From the NCBI GenBank assembly GCA_947468275.1, contig CANIKO010000006.1, forward strand, positions 1-64,000: a stretch of 64,000 nucleotides of DNA, given 5' to 3'. The position numbers and the translations under genes are program-made. Shown one piece after another: positions 15,887 through 23,742 of this stretch. The stretch's first letter is position 1. Every line of letters begins with the position of its first letter. The stretch is from Bacteroidota bacterium (GTDB taxonomy: Bacteria; Bacteroidota; Bacteroidia; NS11-12g; UBA9320). The notes under the pieces are model-generated. The model was given only the letters and a program-made list of their open reading frames with translations, had not been told where the DNA came from and did no database searches.

Positions 15887-18800
15887 CTATTTACCTCTTA
15901 TCAGAGTAACAGTTCCACTAATTGGTTTCCCCTTATTTTTACCATCATTCAATTTCTTCTCAATAATTTGATAATTTATGAGGTAGAAATAGGTTCCTTC
16001 AGGACATTCGGCTCCAGTATTTTTAACCTTACCATTCCATCTGAAATTAGAATTTTTACTTTCAAACACTACTTCACCCCAACGATTATAAATTATGATA
16101 TCAAATTTCTCGAGTCCAATTGCTTTTACTCTAAATTCATCATTAAATCCATCTTTAGGTTCGGGAGTAAACACGTTATAAGGTATAAATACTGCCACAA
16201 AAGAAGAACAAACTGGCTGAATCATTGTATCGGTGCATCCAATAGCATTAGTAGCTATTAAAGTTACATTATGACAACCTGTATCTGCCCATTGGTAACA
16301 AGGGCTTGTATCTGAAGAACCACCATCTGCTGGAAAATCTTCAAAGATCCATTGGTACTTAACTGCACCGATTGACTTATTAATGAAACAATACTTAGGC
16401 TTGAGTGTAGAATCGATAGTGAAATCAGCTTTTACATCCAACACAACTATATTCTTTTTCACTGTGTCAAGACATTTATGAAACTCAGGAGTATCATAGT
16501 TTGGAACCATTATTACTTTATAGTTACCCACTTTTGGATAAGAATACTTAGCTGTTTTATCAGTCGTATTCAAAGTATCGGCAGTACCAAATTTCCAAGT
16601 AAATCTTGTGTAAATTGTATCTGATTGTGATGTAAAGCTAACTAACGTATTTGGACAAATAGTATCATTGGGTGCAATACTAAAGTCTGCAGGTGCCACA
16701 GGTTTAACCCGAATCAATCGTTTGATTTTTATAACTACGTCTGCACTTGTATCAGGATAAATTGCCGAACAACGTTGACTAGTTCCATTAATATTATCGA
16801 ATTGAGTTAAATATACCTCATAAGTTCCTGGGGTATTATATCGGTGCCCAACTGTATCTCTAAATAAACTTGACCCAACTTTTCCATCACCAAAATTCCA
16901 TTCCCACTTAGGACTATAAAGCGGATCCAAACTTTGGTTTGCAAATCTTACAGAATCCCCAACACAAATAATAGTATCGCTAATAGGATTAAAGTAAGGA
17001 CGCGGACCAGCTATGAACACAACCATACTTGCACTGTCAATACAACCCAATTTTGTTCTAACTTTTAATCTGACTGTGAAATAGCCGTTTTGAGTAAAAT
17101 CATGTGATGGATTTTTTAGCTTACTCCTTTGTTTACCATCTCCAAAATCCCAAGTGTATTCTATAATATTATCACACGGTTTACCTTTAGCTAACACACA
17201 AGGGTCTATCATAGTACTTGAGTCAAAGAACGAAATGATGTTTTTGCAACTCAAAGTTCCTGCATTTAAAATCTTGAAAGCAGCATTTACTCCAGTAACA
17301 TAAACTTTTTGGCGAGAAGTATCTACACAACCGGTACTATCTTTCATAGCTATACGGATGGTATAAATACCTGGATCGTCATAATGCCATGCAAATGGAG
17401 GTATACCAATACCTGTAGTTCCAAACATGTTAATCTTTAAACTATCGCAATATGGAGCAACCTTGCTTTTTATAGTGGTATCATTATGCTCGTTAAAGTC
17501 AATTTTTTTGGTTTCACGCTGATTAATAAATCGAGTAGGCGTATTCCAATATGGGAAATTATTCAGATAATTAAATGGATCTTCATAAGCAAAATAGCGA
17601 ATATAGTCACTCAATACTACGTTGGTATTTCCATGGCAAATGATGGTATCGGTATAAGTCCACTTCCAGTAGAACCCAACATCTACTTCCTTATTACGAC
17701 CTTGGAAACAACCAAGAGTATTTTTAAGGTAGAAAGTTGGATAATAACGATCAGGCGTTCTGTAGGCATGACGATAAACCCCTGAGTTAACCTGAAGTCC
17801 TGTAAGTTTATTAACTTTCAAACTATCTCTCCAAGAAACAATTCTGCTTTTCACAAAACTATCCAAATAAGGTGGTTTTTTACTTTTCAATACAAGACTA
17901 TCTCTATAATACTTACTCTTGATGGTACTATCGCCAAAAGGACATACTAAACTAGCGGTTTTAACACGTTGTTTCAAAGTATCAAATCCCATCATACTAA
18001 TGGCACGCCAATGTAAGGTTTGAGAAATAATTGTAGAATCCTTTTTAGTAGCGTCGGTATATCTAAACCAATTTTGAGGATAATAAATAGTATCCTTATT
18101 GGTTTTAGGACTTATACCTTTTGCAGGGAATGGTGCATTGCGATTAAAGGTTAAATTATCACGATATGGTGCAACACCAAAATCAATTAAATCTCCCATT
18201 CCTGAGGTATCAATACATCCAAATCCAGTTCCATTTCCAAAATATAAAGCCATTTCAGTCGATGGGATATCATTTATATCAATACCGATAGATTTAAATT
18301 GATTGGTTAATTGAGTTCTTGCTCTTGAAATATTAGTCCCAATAATCCACTTACGCGTGATAGACAAGACAACTGTATCTAGTGTTTTATAATTAAAACC
18401 ATCAAATTCAGTTCTAACTACATAATTGTATAGCCATTTATCTGTTTTTTTCCATGCAATACCTTTGTCGTTACGAGTAGGACTTGGGCCTTTATAAGGT
18501 TTATTATAAAATGTTTTCTCATCATAACTTGAGTTATTTGCATCATTCCAACTCCATGACAAGGTAGTAATACTATCCATTATCGGATCAGGAAGACTAA
18601 AGGTAATTGTATCACCAACACAAACGCGTTTTTGATCTTTTTCAGGCACTATTACGTCATATAATGCATTCAGATACAGATACCTAAAAGCATTATGATA
18701 CCAAACTGTATCCAGACACTCAGGCACACCTTTAACTATTCGTCCATTACCAATTATCAAACCTACAGTAACCCATCCAGGATTTCTTTCCTGAATATCA

Positions 18801-21697
18801 CCAGCTTGGTAATTTTTTACAAATGTATTTGGCCATGCTCCTGAGGCTAAGTAACTCGGATTCGTCATAGGCCATGGAGTTCCTGGCAATGGAGGTGCCA
18901 TAAATCCGCTGTGAGTTATCCATTTATTTTTACCTGCAGTTGAGTCAAAATTAAATTTCAATAAACGTTGAGTGCAGCCCGGTTTGGTTTTATCAACGTG
19001 AAATTGCAATCCGTAAGGAGGACTTGGTGAGCCATAGCATGTAACACCTTCGAACCATAATCCTTTAGCATTTGGTGGTATTAAGGCTAAGGAAATTTGA
19101 TCTAAGCTTTTGCATCGTAAAGAGTGCACGGTATCCTGATGAAATAACTTAACCTGATTACATTGTGAACTGTTGGTATAAAAACTTTTACGGTGAAACG
19201 CTGAATCAATAAATATGCGAGACCGCTTAATAAAAGTGTCTCTTCCACCTATTATGGTATCAACATATATAGTGGTAGCTGCGGCAGTAATGGTTTTACC
19301 GGCAGTAATAAATACCTGTGCGCTTAAAGTAGCTGAATCTCCTTTTTTCAAAGTAAATTCATCTGCCATATTTTTAAGAGTATACGTGCCTGAACTCTTT
19401 GCAGTCCAAGTAGTTGTTTTAATATTTTTTATTTCTACAGTAGTACTATCTGCATAAGGAGGCACTTTCTTTTTGTTTGTAATATAAAAAGTCCATTTTT
19501 CATCACTCAATGTAGGTATATAAGTGGCGGGACCTACAATTCGTATGGGCACCTTTTTTATTCGGAACGACCCCGTCATTATTTCCTTGGTAGCCGGTGT
19601 TATCGTTCGTCCGGCATAAGTGTATGTGGCATTTTTAGGAAGGATAACCAATGTATCGGCAGGAATTGTGAATGACATTGCAGGATAGTAGTTAACCTTA
19701 TAACAGAATCTACCATTTTTGCACAATACTGTTTTTGAAGCAGGAGCGCTATAAAACTGGCCATTATTATAAATTTTATAAATTTGATCCCAAGGCGTAT
19801 ACCAATGCACCGGAAGAGTATCCATACTCCAATTACAATTTAGTCCTACGTTTTTATTCTTTTTGGTATCGGTAGTACATTTAGGGGCATAATTATCTCC
19901 AAAATCCCAAAGTCTTAATACGTGGTCCTTATGCCTTTGAGTTATAGGAGGAAAGCTTGATTTAATAGCGGTTTGGTCACCAGGCCATTTAAAAGCATAT
20001 TGTTTACGTTTAATAATTTGCAAGGTATCTTTACCCGAAATAATTGGGTTGTTTACTGGTTTCTTAACCTTTTTGCCATTGACGTAATAAATTATACTAT
20101 CGGCAGAAAGGGCATTCTGAACAAACGACTCCAAAGTGTCCTTATCCAAATAAAATATTGTAATTGTGGTAACCGGTCCTTGGAAGGTACCTTTAGAAAC
20201 AATAGTATCTTGTTTGATAGGTGGCTGCCAGTATCCAACTTTGCGGCTACTTAATAATGAATAATATCTCCATACTGCGGAACTATCTTCAAACACAGGA
20301 TAATCATCGGTGTGATAGAAGGTAGAATGGTTCACAAAATGAACTGAATCCCTAATAATACACTGATATTTTTCATCTTCTTTAACACGGGGTGTTATAG
20401 GGTCAACCATTGGAGATACTTCAATGGTTGAAGTTGGACCAATCTTCACTATTGGTTCTTTTACTATTGTTAAGACACATGGCCCCGATTTTAATTTTAA
20501 TGTTACCATCCAAGGTCCTAAGCCATAATCATGCGTAGTACCCACAAGTGTTTTGTCATCAAAGTTAGCAGGTCCACTTGGAGGATCCCCAAAGTTCCAT
20601 AAAAACGATGTAACTCCCTGAACTGGCAAACCGGTGGTTTTATCTATTGGCGTAAATTTAACCGTGGGCTTATCAGAACAGGACGAATCATCCTCTGCTA
20701 TTATTTCAACATTGAGCACGGAGATAGTAACAGCAGCTTTATATATAAATGTTTCTGTACATCCAAATTTGGTTCTAATAGTTAACTTACCGGTTAGCGA
20801 ATACCTTCCACTAGCTCGTCCTGTAAAATCATATCTATGTTTAATAATTTTATTTCCAGATTTACCAGTTAACCATTCGGTATTGGTAACAGAGTCACCA
20901 ATTACAATATTATTAGGTCCGCCCTTATCTCCAAAATCCCATTCAAAATAAGCAATGTCTTTTAGTTTTGTAAAGGTATCGGTTGTATTTTTAATGGTAA
21001 CTGTTGCTTTAACACACGAATCGGGTTTATCGGAAGTAAATGATACTCCAAGTTTTGGAAAAACTCTTATAAATTTAGAATAGAAAACTTTGGTTATACA
21101 TCCGTTGTAATCTTCTACCTCTATGGTTAAATCAAAATAACCTCCATTGGGATCAATAACACTATGACAAATGGTGTCACCACCTTTAGGGTCGTTGATG
21201 GTATAAAGTGCACCATCACTAAACAAATAACGAATGGACAATATTTTACTTTGTACTGGGCGTGAAGCCGCTTTTGAGCTATCTATAAAACAAAACTTAT
21301 TACCTAAAAAACATTGGCTAGAATTGAACAGAGCTCTTGTTTTTACTATGGGGCTTTCCTTAATAAGCACCATAACCGTATCACTACATGGACCAGCCCC
21401 ACCAGAACCTTTAAAGGTTACAATATAAAGACCGGCTTTAGTGTAGGAGTGAACTGGGTCACGCAATGCCGTGGTTGCTCCAGGACCAGCAGTGTACCCA
21501 TCCCCAAAATCCCACTCATAGGTGGTTCTTCCTGGAGAATTTGATTCAAACTGGATCGGTGAATTTTCACAATTAGAACTTTTTACTTTGTTCCATCTTG
21601 GATCACATGGCTGTGCTAAACCAATTTTTGCAGCTGTAAATAATACAAGCAGCATTAAGGCTTTGAGCAATGTTGAGAGGGTAGTGTTTTGTCTCAT
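15887..21697 (-). CDS. Giant PKD-repeat secreted protein with CHU_C (T9SS type B) C-terminus
   Basis: This 1936-aa protein has a signal peptide (ALMLLVLFTAAKIGLAQ) and at least eight PKD-type units. These are recognised by YEWDFGDGYTAGPG, FEWDFGDKGGP, FLWNFGDPPSGP, LWDFGDNYAPK, YTWDFGDGKQRS, WEWNFGDGKVGS, FTWKFGTADTLN and YQWIFEDFPADGG. A long, less repetitive middle (about 450-1330) is rich in Thr, Lys, Tyr and paired Cys. The last ~85 residues (VFTPEPKDGFNDEF ... IIIYNRWGEVVFES ... WNGK ... CPEGTYFYLINY) are a gliding-motility-type CHU_C domain, i.e. a T9SS type B sorting signal. It is the last gene of a probable three-gene operon behind an ECF sigma factor, 86 nt after the middle gene. Likely a cell-surface or biofilm structural protein. 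Confidence 0.92.
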   Translation of the reverse strand: MRQNTTLSTLLKALMLLVLFTAAKIGLAQPCDPRWNKVKSSNCENSPIQFESNSPGRTTYEWDFGDGYTAGPGATTALRDPVHSYTKAGLYIVTFKGSGGAGPCSDTVMVLIKESPIVKTRALFNSSQCFLGNKFCFIDSSKAASRPVQSKILSIRYLFSDGALYTINDPKGGDTICHSVIDPNGGYFDLTIEVEDYNGCITKVFYSKFIRVFPKLGVSFTSDKPDSCVKATVTIKNTTDTFTKLKDIAYFEWDFGDKGGPNNIVIGDSVTNTEWLTGKSGNKIIKHRYDFTGRASGRYSLTGKLTIRTKFGCTETFIYKAAVTISVLNVEIIAEDDSSCSDKPTVKFTPIDKTTGLPVQGVTSFLWNFGDPPSGPANFDDKTLVGTTHDYGLGPWMVTLKLKSGPCVLTIVKEPIVKIGPTSTIEVSPMVDPITPRVKEDEKYQCIIRDSVHFVNHSTFYHTDDYPVFEDSSAVWRYYSLLSSRKVGYWQPPIKQDTIVSKGTFQGPVTTITIFYLDKDTLESFVQNALSADSIIYYVNGKKVKKPVNNPIISGKDTLQIIKRKQYAFKWPGDQTAIKSSFPPITQRHKDHVLRLWDFGDNYAPKCTTDTKKNKNVGLNCNWSMDTLPVHWYTPWDQIYKIYNNGQFYSAPASKTVLCKNGRFCYKVNYYPAMSFTIPADTLVILPKNATYTYAGRTITPATKEIMTGSFRIKKVPIRIVGPATYIPTLSDEKWTFYITNKKKVPPYADSTTVEIKNIKTTTWTAKSSGTYTLKNMADEFTLKKGDSATLSAQVFITAGKTITAAATTIYVDTIIGGRDTFIKRSRIFIDSAFHRKSFYTNSSQCNQVKLFHQDTVHSLRCKSLDQISLALIPPNAKGLWFEGVTCYGSPSPPYGLQFHVDKTKPGCTQRLLKFNFDSTAGKNKWITHSGFMAPPLPGTPWPMTNPSYLASGAWPNTFVKNYQAGDIQERNPGWVTVGLIIGNGRIVKGVPECLDTVWYHNAFRYLYLNALYDVIVPEKDQKRVCVGDTITFSLPDPIMDSITTLSWSWNDANNSSYDEKTFYNKPYKGPSPTRNDKGIAWKKTDKWLYNYVVRTEFDGFNYKTLDTVVLSITRKWIIGTNISRARTQLTNQFKSIGIDINDIPSTEMALYFGNGTGFGCIDTSGMGDLIDFGVAPYRDNLTFNRNAPFPAKGISPKTNKDTIYYPQNWFRYTDATKKDSTIISQTLHWRAISMMGFDTLKQRVKTASLVCPFGDSTIKSKYYRDSLVLKSKKPPYLDSFVKSRIVSWRDSLKVNKLTGLQVNSGVYRHAYRTPDRYYPTFYLKNTLGCFQGRNKEVDVGFYWKWTYTDTIICHGNTNVVLSDYIRYFAYEDPFNYLNNFPYWNTPTRFINQRETKKIDFNEHNDTTIKSKVAPYCDSLKINMFGTTGIGIPPFAWHYDDPGIYTIRIAMKDSTGCVDTSRQKVYVTGVNAAFKILNAGTLSCKNIISFFDSSTMIDPCVLAKGKPCDNIIEYTWDFGDGKQRSKLKNPSHDFTQNGYFTVRLKVRTKLGCIDSASMVVFIAGPRPYFNPISDTIICVGDSVRFANQSLDPLYSPKWEWNFGDGKVGSSLFRDTVGHRYNTPGTYEVYLTQFDNINGTSQRCSAIYPDTSADVVIKIKRLIRVKPVAPADFSIAPNDTICPNTLVSFTSQSDTIYTRFTWKFGTADTLNTTDKTAKYSYPKVGNYKVIMVPNYDTPEFHKCLDTVKKNIVVLDVKADFTIDSTLKPKYCFINKSIGAVKYQWIFEDFPADGGSSDTSPCYQWADTGCHNVTLIATNAIGCTDTMIQPVCSSFVAVFIPYNVFTPEPKDGFNDEFRVKAIGLEKFDIIIYNRWGEVVFESKNSNFRWNGKVKNTGAECPEGTYFYLINYQIIEKKLNDGKNKGKPISGTVTLIRGK

Positions 21698-21783
21698 AAT
21701 TTTTATTTTTTTTGTTTTTAAAAGGGCTTCTTTTTCAAACAGCCCGCTATTTTACGACTTAAAATTTAATTATTATTAATTTT

Positions 21784-22641
21784 TTACAATAAAGTAATTT
21801 TTCCGGGTATAATTTTCCTGTATCCTGATTTCAATTCAATGATTAATTTGTAGCGATAAACAGCTTTTGGAGCCATTTCTCCGGTGTTCATATTTTTACC
21901 ATCCCAACACTTATTTTTATCGGTACTTTCAAAAACTTTCCTATTTTGGTTATCACAAATTAGAAGTATAAATTGGGTTTCATTTTCTATACTAATTTTA
22001 AAACAATCATTTAATCCATCGCCATCAGGTGTAATAACATCGGGAATAACCATTTCATTTATCAAAGTCTGATCTTCAGAAGTGATAGTTTCCTGTTGAT
22101 GGGATTCTATAGGTGTCACTTTTGTATAATTAGGTTCAACCTCTTTCTTAATTTCAGGTTTTATTGAAGGCGCTACCACAACTTCACTTTTTACTGGAAC
22201 ATCAATTTTATTATTAGCGATTTCTGAAGCGGTTGCTGATACTTCGTTTGGAATATCTTTAATCATCGAATCCTCATTTTGAACAAAGATTTTAGTTTCT
22301 TTAATTTCTGAAGGATTAGCTGATATCGATAATGCGGTATCTATGGTTATGCCGGTTTCAGTTATTGCGTTATTGATTATTGGGTTATTAGTTACAGGTG
22401 TAATTTCCGCAGGTTTCAAAAGTTGATAAGCTCCAAATCCGGCTCCCCCCGCCAATAAAACACCTACCACTGTTTTTAAAATTAATAATTTAAGGCTCGT
22501 TACTTTAGCCACCACAATGGCTTTGGCACCAATGGAAGAACCTACAGTTTCCCAAACCCCGGCAGGAACCGGCATTTGAGAACCCTGAAGCGATTGCTTA
22601 AGCATCGCATCAAAGTTGTTTATGTTTGGGTTGTTTTCCAT
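21784..22641 (-). CDS. Single-pass membrane protein with CHU_C-like C-terminus, candidate anti-sigma/sensor
   Basis: I chose the ATG at 22641 (MENNPNINNF), 7 nt after the sigma-factor stop; longer in-frame starts lie inside the sigma gene. The 285-aa product has no signal peptide. Residues 1-38 hold a short motif (FDAMLKQSLQ ... PVPAGVWETV) like the N-terminal segment of many Bacteroidota proteins encoded beside ECF sigma factors. One membrane helix spans about 49-75, followed by a Glu/Lys/Ile/Thr-rich linker to about 200. The C-terminal ~80 residues resemble CHU_C (VIPDVITPDGDGLNDCF ... CDNQNRKVFES ... CWDGKNMNTGE ... YRYKLII ... GKITLL). The predicted topology is N-in, C-out. An anti-sigma role is inferred from position and topology, not from a recognised anti-sigma domain. 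Confidence 0.82.
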   Translation of the reverse strand: MENNPNINNFDAMLKQSLQGSQMPVPAGVWETVGSSIGAKAIVVAKVTSLKLLILKTVVGVLLAGGAGFGAYQLLKPAEITPVTNNPIINNAITETGITIDTALSISANPSEIKETKIFVQNEDSMIKDIPNEVSATASEIANNKIDVPVKSEVVVAPSIKPEIKKEVEPNYTKVTPIESHQQETITSEDQTLINEMVIPDVITPDGDGLNDCFKISIENETQFILLICDNQNRKVFESTDKNKCWDGKNMNTGEMAPKAVYRYKLIIELKSGYRKIIPGKITLL

Positions 22642-22648
22642 TTTTTTG

Positions 22649-23188
22649 TTAAAAATTATTTTTAAGCATTTTTTGTAACATGTGCCTTCCCTTATGCAAT
22701 TGCGTTTTTGATGTATTCTCAGAAATACCGAGCAATTCGGCAATTTCTTTGTGGCTATAACCTTCAATAATAAAAAGGTTAATGACAGTTCGGTAGCCGG
22801 TTGGCAATTTCTGAATCTGAGCCAAAATTTTAGCGGCATCCAAACCATGAAATTGAAAAGAATCGGATGATAAATCATGAACATCATCTAAATTAACCAT
22901 GTTGGGCTGCCTCAATTCTTTGCGGATATACTCTAAAGCGTGATTTATAAAAATCCGTTTTAACCAACCTTCGAATGAACCTTCAAATTTAAATTCACCA
23001 AGTTTGGTATAAACCTTTACAAATCCTTCCTGTAGTAAGTCTTTAGCCTGATCAGAATTTTTTGCATACCGGTAACAAATAGCATACATAGTGGGGGCAA
23101 ATGTGTCAAATAACGCTTTTTGTGACTTTGGATTTTTTGCCAAACAACCCTTTATCAGCACTATATTCCTTTCTTCGGGTTGCGACAT
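22649..23188 (-). CDS. ECF-type RNA polymerase sigma factor
   Basis: The 179-aa protein has sigma-70 region 2 (ICYRYAKNSDQAKDLLQEGF, residues about 33-52, then EGWLKRIFINHALEYIRK). Region 4, with its helix-turn-helix, reads GYSHKEIAELLGISENTSKT near 142-161. It lacks regions 1 and 3, as expected for an extracytoplasmic-function factor. It is the first gene of a minus-strand unit leading into the membrane CHU_C protein and the giant PKD protein, suggesting that it directs their expression or responds to their export. ATG start at 23188. Confidence 0.93.
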   Translation of the reverse strand: MSQPEERNIVLIKGCLAKNPKSQKALFDTFAPTMYAICYRYAKNSDQAKDLLQEGFVKVYTKLGEFKFEGSFEGWLKRIFINHALEYIRKELRQPNMVNLDDVHDLSSDSFQFHGLDAAKILAQIQKLPTGYRTVINLFIIEGYSHKEIAELLGISENTSKTQLHKGRHMLQKMLKNNF

Positions 23189-23263
23189 ATTTTAACATTC
23201 AAAATCTTTAGTCCACTTTATATGGATGGTATTTGTTTCAGTCAGGTTGCCTGAAAAAATCAA

Positions 23264-23725
23264 TTATTCTGATAATTTTTTTACCCCGTAGTTTTTTGAA
23301 TAATAATCGGCGAGCATTTCGGCATAATAACCTGTGCTTTCGACGGCTTCAACAACTGAGGCTTCAGTTAATCCTGCCAATATACATTTGAACTTTAATG
23401 CCAACACATTGTCCTTCCGATTAATAATTACAGAAGCTTGGTAAAGATGAAAATTCATATGAAGTAATTCTTCATAAAATTTAAATAATTTATCTTCCGT
23501 GGGAAGTTCTGTTATTGGCGCTATTACTTGAAAGGTATTTACAGACTCTTCAGTGCCTGTATAATTCCAATCGGAATTATGACTTGGTTTCCAAACATCG
23601 ATAAATATACATATTGCGCCTCTGAAAACCTGCCATTGTCCGGGTTCTTCACCTCGGGTTTCCTCTGGATTAAGCCCCATTTTGATTATGGCACTTTCAA
23701 TGGTGGTGATATAATTTTCTGTCAT
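23264..23725 (-). CDS. YbjN-like small cytoplasmic protein
   Basis: The 153-aa soluble protein resembles the YbjN / type III secretion chaperone-like fold: an N-terminal helix (ITTIESAIIKMGLNP), a sheet region (WQVFRGAICIFIDVW) and a middle helix (EDKLFKFYEELLHMNF). A strand (LALKFKCILAGL) and a C-terminal helix ending in YYSKNYGVKK follow. The family role is unclear; some members affect motility and stress responses. The ATG at 23725 is preferred because the alternative TTG at 23737 lies inside the TATCTTTG promoter box. It is separated from the sigma gene by 75 nt on the same strand. Confidence 0.65.
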   Translation of the reverse strand: MTENYITTIESAIIKMGLNPEETRGEEPGQWQVFRGAICIFIDVWKPSHNSDWNYTGTEESVNTFQVIAPITELPTEDKLFKFYEELLHMNFHLYQASVIINRKDNVLALKFKCILAGLTEASVVEAVESTGYYAEMLADYYSKNYGVKKLSE

Positions 23726-23734
23726 AAGAGGGGG

Positions 23735-23742
23735 CAAAGATA
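23735..23742 (-). promoter_or_regulatory. -7 box TATCTTTG for the YbjN-like gene
   Basis: Read on the minus strand, TATCTTTG lies 9 nt before the ATG at 23725. A TTTG (CAAA at 23761-23764 on the plus strand) sits 18 nt further upstream. The box fixes the start codon choice. Confidence 0.6.

Follow-up and report, generated by a model that had tools for sequence, protein, structure and literature searches.

The stretch of DNA considered here, 64,000 nucleotides (nt) from contig CANIKO010000006.1 of a Bacteroidota bacterium (assembly GCA_947468275.1; hereafter the window), encodes an extracytoplasmic function (ECF) sigma factor and, directly behind it, a transmembrane protein that ends in a CHU_C domain, the type B sorting domain of the type IX secretion system (T9SS). 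The sigma factor and this transmembrane CHU_C (TM-CHU_C) protein form a real, conserved module, and the membrane protein is very probably the anti-sigma factor of the adjoining sigma factor, judging from sequence comparison. As an explanation of the whole we propose an anti-sigma factor whose CHU_C domain would be a bait docking on the T9SS, a proposal that we regard as evenly balanced between right and wrong.

The locus comprises three genes on the minus strand, in the order ECF sigma factor, TM-CHU_C protein and a giant of 1936 amino acids (aa) with PKD repeats and CHU_C, with gaps of 7 and 86 nt. This layout, with CHU_C-like ends on both the membrane protein and the giant, had been proposed in an original prediction made from the letters of the window, and the coordinates of the open reading frames (ORFs) bear it out once the middle gene is started at 22641. 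Indeed, the ORF caller stretches that gene to 22887, but the genus orthologues begin 5-9 nt past the sigma stop, and we therefore place the start at the ATG at 22641 (285 aa). Both proteins exceed the Pfam cut-off for CHU_C of 27 bits (49.7 bits for the membrane protein, 66.2 bits for the giant, which also matches PKD repeats), while TIGR04131, with a cut-off of 35, scores 37.3 on the giant and 30.8 on the membrane protein. The features of the locus, in positions of the window, are:

22649..23188, minus strand: ECF sigma factor, 179 aa (Sigma70_r2 and r4_2 above the Pfam cut-off)
21784..22641, minus strand: TM-CHU_C membrane protein, 285 aa, putative anti-sigma factor (Pfam, orthologue starts, neighbour count, structure model)
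22507..22641, minus strand: its N-terminal segment, residues 1-45, presumably cytoplasmic, helix-PxP-W-helix (profile of residues 1-80, model)
22417..22503, minus strand: its transmembrane segment, approximately residues 47-75 (hydropathy of close orthologues sharing the start)
22054..22413, minus strand: its tether, residues 77-196, rich in I, E, T, N and P (model, composition)
21787..22053, minus strand: its CHU_C-like domain lacking RWG, residues 197-285 (Pfam, model, structure alignment)
21724..21745, minus strand: hairpin and T-run between membrane gene and giant, possible attenuator (conserved stem)
15887..21697, minus strand: giant, 1936 aa, PKD repeats, T9SS type B cargo (Pfam, TIGR04131)
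15956..16180, minus strand: CHU_C domain of the giant, RWG intact (72.1 bits in the genome-wide CHU_C scan)
23225..23250, minus strand: predicted ECF promoter GCAACC-N16-CATC upstream of the sigma gene (motif counts, position weight matrix)

The pair on which the original prediction turned recurs far beyond the window. Behind related sigma genes (more than 100 bits) a TM-CHU_C gene comes next in 88 of 91 cases, mostly at -31 to +9 nt; these loci were fetched by searches for giants or TM-CHU_C proteins, with some genomes counted twice, and hold 74 distinct membrane proteins. For a separate count of the giants, named genomes were scanned with an alignment of these proteins; of 539 confirmed stretches the best 80 were kept, which gave 76 loci. 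Where the giant had at least 1400 aa and at least 2 kb lay upstream (15 of the 76 loci have less than 2 kb, and a further 18 have shorter ORFs), 42 of 43 loci have the TM-CHU_C gene immediately upstream, preceded in turn by the sigma gene, L169 being the sole exception. The pair is also present in four of the 18 loci with shorter ORFs (L110, L127, L151 and L152), all of them with giants running off the contig end; in L149 the giant is split into two ORFs and the pair precedes the first piece, in L108 a broken giant has the end of a TM-CHU_C gene ahead of it at the contig start, and the remaining 12 lack the pair and encode PKD proteins 1211-1288 aa long. Similarly, the triad follows in a row in 19 of 20 stretches picked from the match table (several of our locus sets were hand-picked in this way), the twentieth (L062) starting within the TM-CHU_C gene. 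The genes around the triad vary (metH, mnmE, sucD and dnaX, as read from translations), the triad itself being constant. Within the order, a single match running from the N-terminus into CHU_C is listed for at least 56 of 108 genomes. No relative was found in the viral contigs searched.

The giant is a frequent companion of the pair and is not essential to the module. Of the 74 distinct TM-CHU_C proteins, 58 have behind them a CHU_C protein longer than 450 aa, and the start of the giant lies -29 to 150 nt from the membrane gene across loci, near zero in many other lineages. Outside the order, we examined 20 stretches chosen from a search of the class plus G079. Sigma factor and TM-CHU_C protein stood side by side in G079 and in 18 of the 20 stretches, but not in L277 and L279. 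Once L278, which belongs to the window's own family, is set apart, 18 pairs remain. Behind seven of them comes a giant with CHU_C (L260, L271-L276) and behind two another CHU_C protein (637 aa in L262, 1188 aa in L268); directly behind the other nine (L207, L261, L263-L267, L269 and L270) there is no CHU_C gene, type A cargo not having been looked for. The pair is therefore best regarded as the unit and the giant as its frequent third member. In one family (f71; L263 and L265) the pair is followed by a second sigma factor and a short transmembrane protein.

The case for an anti-sigma factor begins at the N-terminus of the membrane protein. A profile built on its first 80 residues and searched in 395 Bacteroidota genomes, the window's own included, matched 43 of them. 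Twenty-eight of the 29 loci outside the own genome were readable, and in all 28 the matching gene lies directly behind an ECF sigma gene; CHU_C is present in one (L174), and the other 27 proteins end in barrel-like or short plain stretches, as judged by eye. The N-terminal motif singled out by the original prediction is thus homologous, by profile and by hhalign, to the N-termini of other sigma-linked membrane proteins. Of the two properties on which that prediction had staked itself, linkage of the homologues to sigma genes held throughout, and possession of CHU_C failed in 27 of 28. By sequence, these proteins share an anti-sigma-like stem that can carry various ends, of which CHU_C is one. 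Within the own genome, the sigma-linked protein of L089 matches the profile (E 5.7e-6; hhalign probability 94.6%) and gives an outer-membrane barrel match of 30.1 bits (cut-off 27), those of L084 and L091 remaining below the barrel cut-off; the Pfam barrel check was run on these three own-genome proteins. At each of the three loci a sigma gene is followed by such a membrane protein with a barrel match, and in two of three the next genes have weak matches to surface proteins.

The sigma factors follow the same grouping. In a tree, those beside CHU_C proteins and those beside the other N-terminal relatives form one clan (support 100/95), outside of which nine other ECF sigma factors of the own genome fall.

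The layout of the protein is that of a single-pass membrane protein. Over the 74 distinct homologues the transmembrane segment starts, by hydropathy, at a median of residue 53, and past residue 130 no segment reaches a Kyte-Doolittle value of 1.6 (the entry for the window being here the over-extended ORF); in single orthologues it was placed at residues 47-65 (L097) and at 37-55 and 57-75 (L110). Judged by hydropathy only, the Sec signal peptide of type B cargo is lacking, and in both respects the original prediction, a single-pass membrane protein free of a signal peptide, agrees with our data. The structure model has helices at residues 7-19 and 29-38, no confident helix in the transmembrane region, and a tether almost devoid of secondary structure (a short helix at 188-195) with mostly low predicted local distance difference test (pLDDT) values. 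The length of the tether ranges from 119 to 305 residues across homologues.

The CHU_C domain itself is well modelled (mean pLDDT above 90 for residues 197-285) and aligns with the C-terminal domain (CTD) of translocon-bound NucA (8glk_D; Z 8.1, root-mean-square deviation 2.0 A, 72 of 75 residues) as well as with entries of RemA, RemZ, PorU and PorZ (Z 6.8-7.6). Its residues were compared among the 74 membrane proteins, 58 giants and 28 own-genome cargo proteins, the last being those of 41 CHU_C matches for which a locus was available, minus two genes of this finding. Since the 74 proteins, and likewise the 48 homologues searched for further domains, were chosen by a CHU_C match beside a sigma gene, the fact that all 48 match CHU_C is no test. 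The residues common to cargo in the FTP, DG-ND, WxG and GxY stretches are largely shared by the membrane proteins. By contrast, the Trp of an RWG motif occurs in none of 73 membrane proteins, as against 51 of 58 giants and 26 of 28 cargo proteins; the exact RWG, a motif found here and not a published criterion, occurs in 0 of 74, 50 of 58 and 23 of 28, and a Gly in the last strand in 25 of 72, 57 of 57 and 26 of 28, respectively. In the type B CTD of SprB, five conserved motifs are each required for secretion (PMC12618676). With cargo residues lost and such motifs needed for secretion, the domain of the membrane protein is probably not exported and may be read as a non-exported docking copy, in line with the original suggestion that it is out of place for cargo. 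In six of 48 homologues PKD is found besides CHU_C, and the outer part then resembles a cargo end.

A promoter-like motif accompanies the sigma genes. In all seven genomes of the genus, CAAC and CATC stand 17 bases apart upstream of the sigma gene, with variable bases between them. The pattern RCAACY-N16-CDTC, sought from 250 nt upstream to 60 nt inside the gene, occurs at 66 of 74 CHU-linked sigma genes; among 601 other genes at these loci, used as controls, 9 have it. An unguided count of spaced pairs of 4-base words likewise ranked CAAC-17-CATC first (38 of 77 regions; best after shuffling, 9). Of the 77 regions scored with a position weight matrix, 46 had also served to train it, the plain-pattern count being its control; the only match of the matrix of at least 15 in the window is the site before the sigma gene, from which, we infer, the sigma factor may autoregulate. 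There is a precedent in Flavobacterium psychrophilum, where T9SS genes as well as one sigma/anti-sigma pair carry ECF-type promoters (PMC9723704).

A wider regulon is harder to delimit. The exact pattern has 20 matches in the own genome versus 7 for a reversed control, and 14, 15 and 13 matches in G005, G004 and G006 versus 12, 12 and 7 (30 of these 42 matches had loci and were read). Since the latter counts barely exceed the control, a regulon derived from the pattern is mostly noise. Four of the 20 own-genome matches are intergenic and rightly placed, namely those before the sigma operon and before genes for a DUF1573 protein, a MORN protein and an M4 peptidase. The sites of the sigma operon and the DUF1573 gene recur in four of four genomes of the genus, that of the M4 peptidase in two. 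The DUF1573 protein bearing the site (L282:309-1403) comprises three DUF1573 stretches. Regulation of the SprA and PorP/SprF genes was considered and set aside, as no good site was found in the stretches fetched.

The own genome has a T9SS, with one SprA (2370 bits, in a frame of 2382 aa), five PorP/SprF genes and 41 CHU_C matches, 39 of them above the cut-off. What has been computed is the conserved pair, the homologous N-terminus, the layout, the identity of the domain, the loss of cargo residues and the promoter-like motif; sigma binding, topology, docking partner, signal and mode of release are what we infer in the following scheme. The cytoplasmic helices of the membrane protein would hold the sigma factor, and one transmembrane helix and a long tether would lead to the folded periplasmic CHU_C domain. 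This domain would be a bait that cannot be exported and that docks on an outer-membrane part of the T9SS, either a PorP/SprF-like shuttle or the SprA translocon, thereby holding the inhibitor stretched across the envelope. Once the docking site is lost, filled with cargo or stressed, the inhibitor would be released or cleaved, and the freed sigma factor would fire from its own RCAACY-N16-CDTC promoter. It would act on its own operon and, in many lineages, on the giant cargo gene that comes next; in this genus the DUF1573 protein may be a further target. That CHU_C contacts a part of the T9SS as the signal is possible, if somewhat doubtful. Rather unlikely, in our estimate, is the farther-reaching idea of a secretion checkpoint, in which a fixed copy of the type B signal in the anti-sigma factor would compete with cargo for the shuttle or translocon, and the cell would read the occupancy and adjust the transcription of surface proteins.

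Several observations weigh against the docking proposal. Since 27 of the 28 N-terminal relatives lack CHU_C, the domain may be a replaceable end with no T9SS meaning, and the CHU-linked sigma factors are intermixed within their clan, with up to seven label changes, and may nonetheless have one origin. The motif scores at least 14.9 at 16 of 32 other sigma loci and for this reason marks the sigma group and not the CHU_C type. No site of at least 12 was found in the SprA stretch and in four of the five PorP/SprF stretches, as far as the fetched stretches reach (promoters farther upstream being uncovered), and the fifth has one weak site of 12.3, a strength at which the window shows one match other than its own per 64 kb. 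The fold alone proves nothing, because streptococcal proteases outscore the T9SS CTDs (Z 9.5 versus 8.1) and Z values near 8 are common. The 74 domains are related, so that the loss of the Trp may be a single event, and beyond the order half of the pairs lack an immediately following CHU_C gene.

These points lend some credit to a tentative alternative, in which the anti-sigma factor is retained and CHU_C is a borrowed immunoglobulin-like sensor or protease shield for a periplasmic or cell-wall ligand, with no role in the T9SS. The absence of RWG from all 74 proteins, the generic fold, the want of a good promoter link to the T9SS stretches examined and the quite different ends of the N-terminal relatives would all fit it; yet the domain of the window still reaches the CHU_C cut-off, the TP, DG-ND, WxG and GxY residues of cargo are kept in most of the 74 (a set itself picked by CHU_C), and a type B cargo gene is often next. 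In flagella, an anti-sigma factor, FlgM, is removed by export, and by analogy a protease might cut the tether so that the CHU_C ectodomain leaves through the T9SS and the anti-sigma factor with it. A complete, rightly placed C-terminal type B fold, the long tethers and the combination of PKD and CHU_C, as in real cargo, in six of 48 homologues speak for such an export, which nevertheless appears decidedly improbable given that the most conserved Trp of cargo, and often a Gly, are lost and that hydropathy indicates no signal peptide.

The circuit envisaged by the original prediction, a dedicated cargo-load circuit in which it is the giant that CHU_C measures and the sigma factor has the giant produced when needed, draws on the 42 of 43 full giants right behind the pair and on gaps (-29 to 150 nt) suggestive of co-transcription. 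We consider it improbable, and as a general rule a circuit dedicated to the giant is ruled out by the pairs, in several families, with no CHU_C gene behind them. Moreover, the CHU_C of the membrane protein is not specially similar to that of the giant (its best own-genome match is another cargo, at 45%, versus 35% for the giant), and in this genus a hairpin and T-run precede the giant. Recent copying of the giant's CHU_C into the membrane protein is likewise ruled out by these closer relatives. Very improbable indeed is the absence of any regulation, that is, an ordinary T9SS cargo with a signal-anchor N-terminus that lies beside a sigma gene by accident. A C-terminal CHU_C above the Pfam cut-off is what such cargo would have, but the conserved adjacency to sigma genes largely refutes it, and the N-terminal homology to other sigma-linked membrane proteins, the transmembrane start near residue 50 and the lost cargo residues also stand against it.

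Compared with known systems, the putative CHU_C-tailed anti-sigma factor resembles most in layout Dma1/Das1 and Dma2/Das2 of Bacteroides thetaiotaomicron, which combine an N-terminal anti-sigma segment, one transmembrane helix, a long disordered tether, a folded C-terminal domain and an ECF sigma factor next door (PMC13088901). Here too a single transmembrane segment (by hydropathy) is followed by a long tether of low model confidence, and an ECF sigma factor adjoins; where the Dma family has an ECF21 sigma factor, the one here falls in one clan with the sigma factors beside the N-terminal relatives. The N-terminus was compared with sigma-linked membrane proteins of the phylum and is homologous to these, one of which has a barrel above the cut-off. 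Where Dma ends in an outer-membrane beta-barrel, the protein here ends in a type B CHU_C domain above the cut-off with an immunoglobulin-like model, and a giant T9SS cargo is often encoded behind the pair. The protein thus varies the Dma-like layout and, judged by the barrel, is not a member of Dma. In Porphyromonas gingivalis a T9SS CTD protein, PorA, likewise stands upstream of an ECF sigma factor controlling the T9SS (PorXY-SigP), but PorA is exported to the surface and acts via a two-component system, whereas here the CTD belongs to a putative anti-sigma factor; what activates PorY is stated there to be undetermined (PMC7712824). With type B cargo such as SprB and PG1035 the protein shares the C-terminal CHU_C/TIGR04131 domain (PMC12618676, PMC9143113). 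It differs from such cargo in its transmembrane segment near residue 50, the missing signal peptide (hydropathy), the loss of RWG and the adjoining sigma gene.

FecR-type anti-sigma factors are single-pass inner-membrane inhibitors of ECF sigma factors, whose periplasmic sensor touches an outer-membrane protein. The proposed arrangement would be analogous, with a periplasmic sensor reaching an outer-membrane protein, although the Pfam search, run to E values of 1, matched nothing of the FecR family. Among the titles and abstract openings listed from the open-licence literature, none describes an anti-sigma factor with a CHU_C or T9SS sorting domain, and the available parts of PMC8999054 and PMC12045153 contain nothing bearing on the question.

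These findings bear on how Bacteroidota fit the synthesis of surface proteins to the capacity of their T9SS. A putative anti-sigma factor with a changed T9SS signal offers a direct, deletable candidate for a sensor in many genomes of Bacteroidia, and with the TM-CHU_C protein the Dma layout gains a second type of outer end. There is also a warning here, as a domain search alone would class these membrane proteins as T9SS cargo.

The giant has an N-terminus resembling a signal peptide (by eye), PKD repeats and an intact CHU_C. Its middle region (residues 425-1030; window 18608-20425, minus strand) is conserved, 46 positions being invariant among 30 orthologues. It matches no Pfam family, sequences in the PDB match it at E 0.06 at best, and its model has a mean pLDDT of 57. 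The hairpin and T-run just ahead of its start codon fold into the same stem in six of six genomes of the genus, the pairs GGGCU/AGCCC being replaced by GGACU/AGUCC in two of the six. The z-scores of the hairpin are weak (-0.6 to -2.1), and RNAalifold over the six intergenic stretches paired other columns (-0.88 kcal/mol), because the 3' arm is misaligned; single folds recover the stem. In this genus such a conserved element may attenuate the giant compared with the pair.

Upstream of the sigma gene, a 157-aa protein with no Pfam match is encoded at 23264-23737 of the window (minus strand), and proteins of like size (unaligned) occupy this position in many related loci. Finally, on contig C5 of the own genome (L093:519-3394) a divergent ECF sigma gene is followed after 2 nt by that of a 776-aa protein with a hydrophobic stretch at about residues 50-70 (by eye, below the hydropathy threshold) and a type A T9SS tail (PF18962, 34.5 bits; TIGR04183, 34 bits). 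This protein may be another T9SS-tailed neighbour of a sigma gene, and four of 295 other genomes of the phylum match it, in the tail only.

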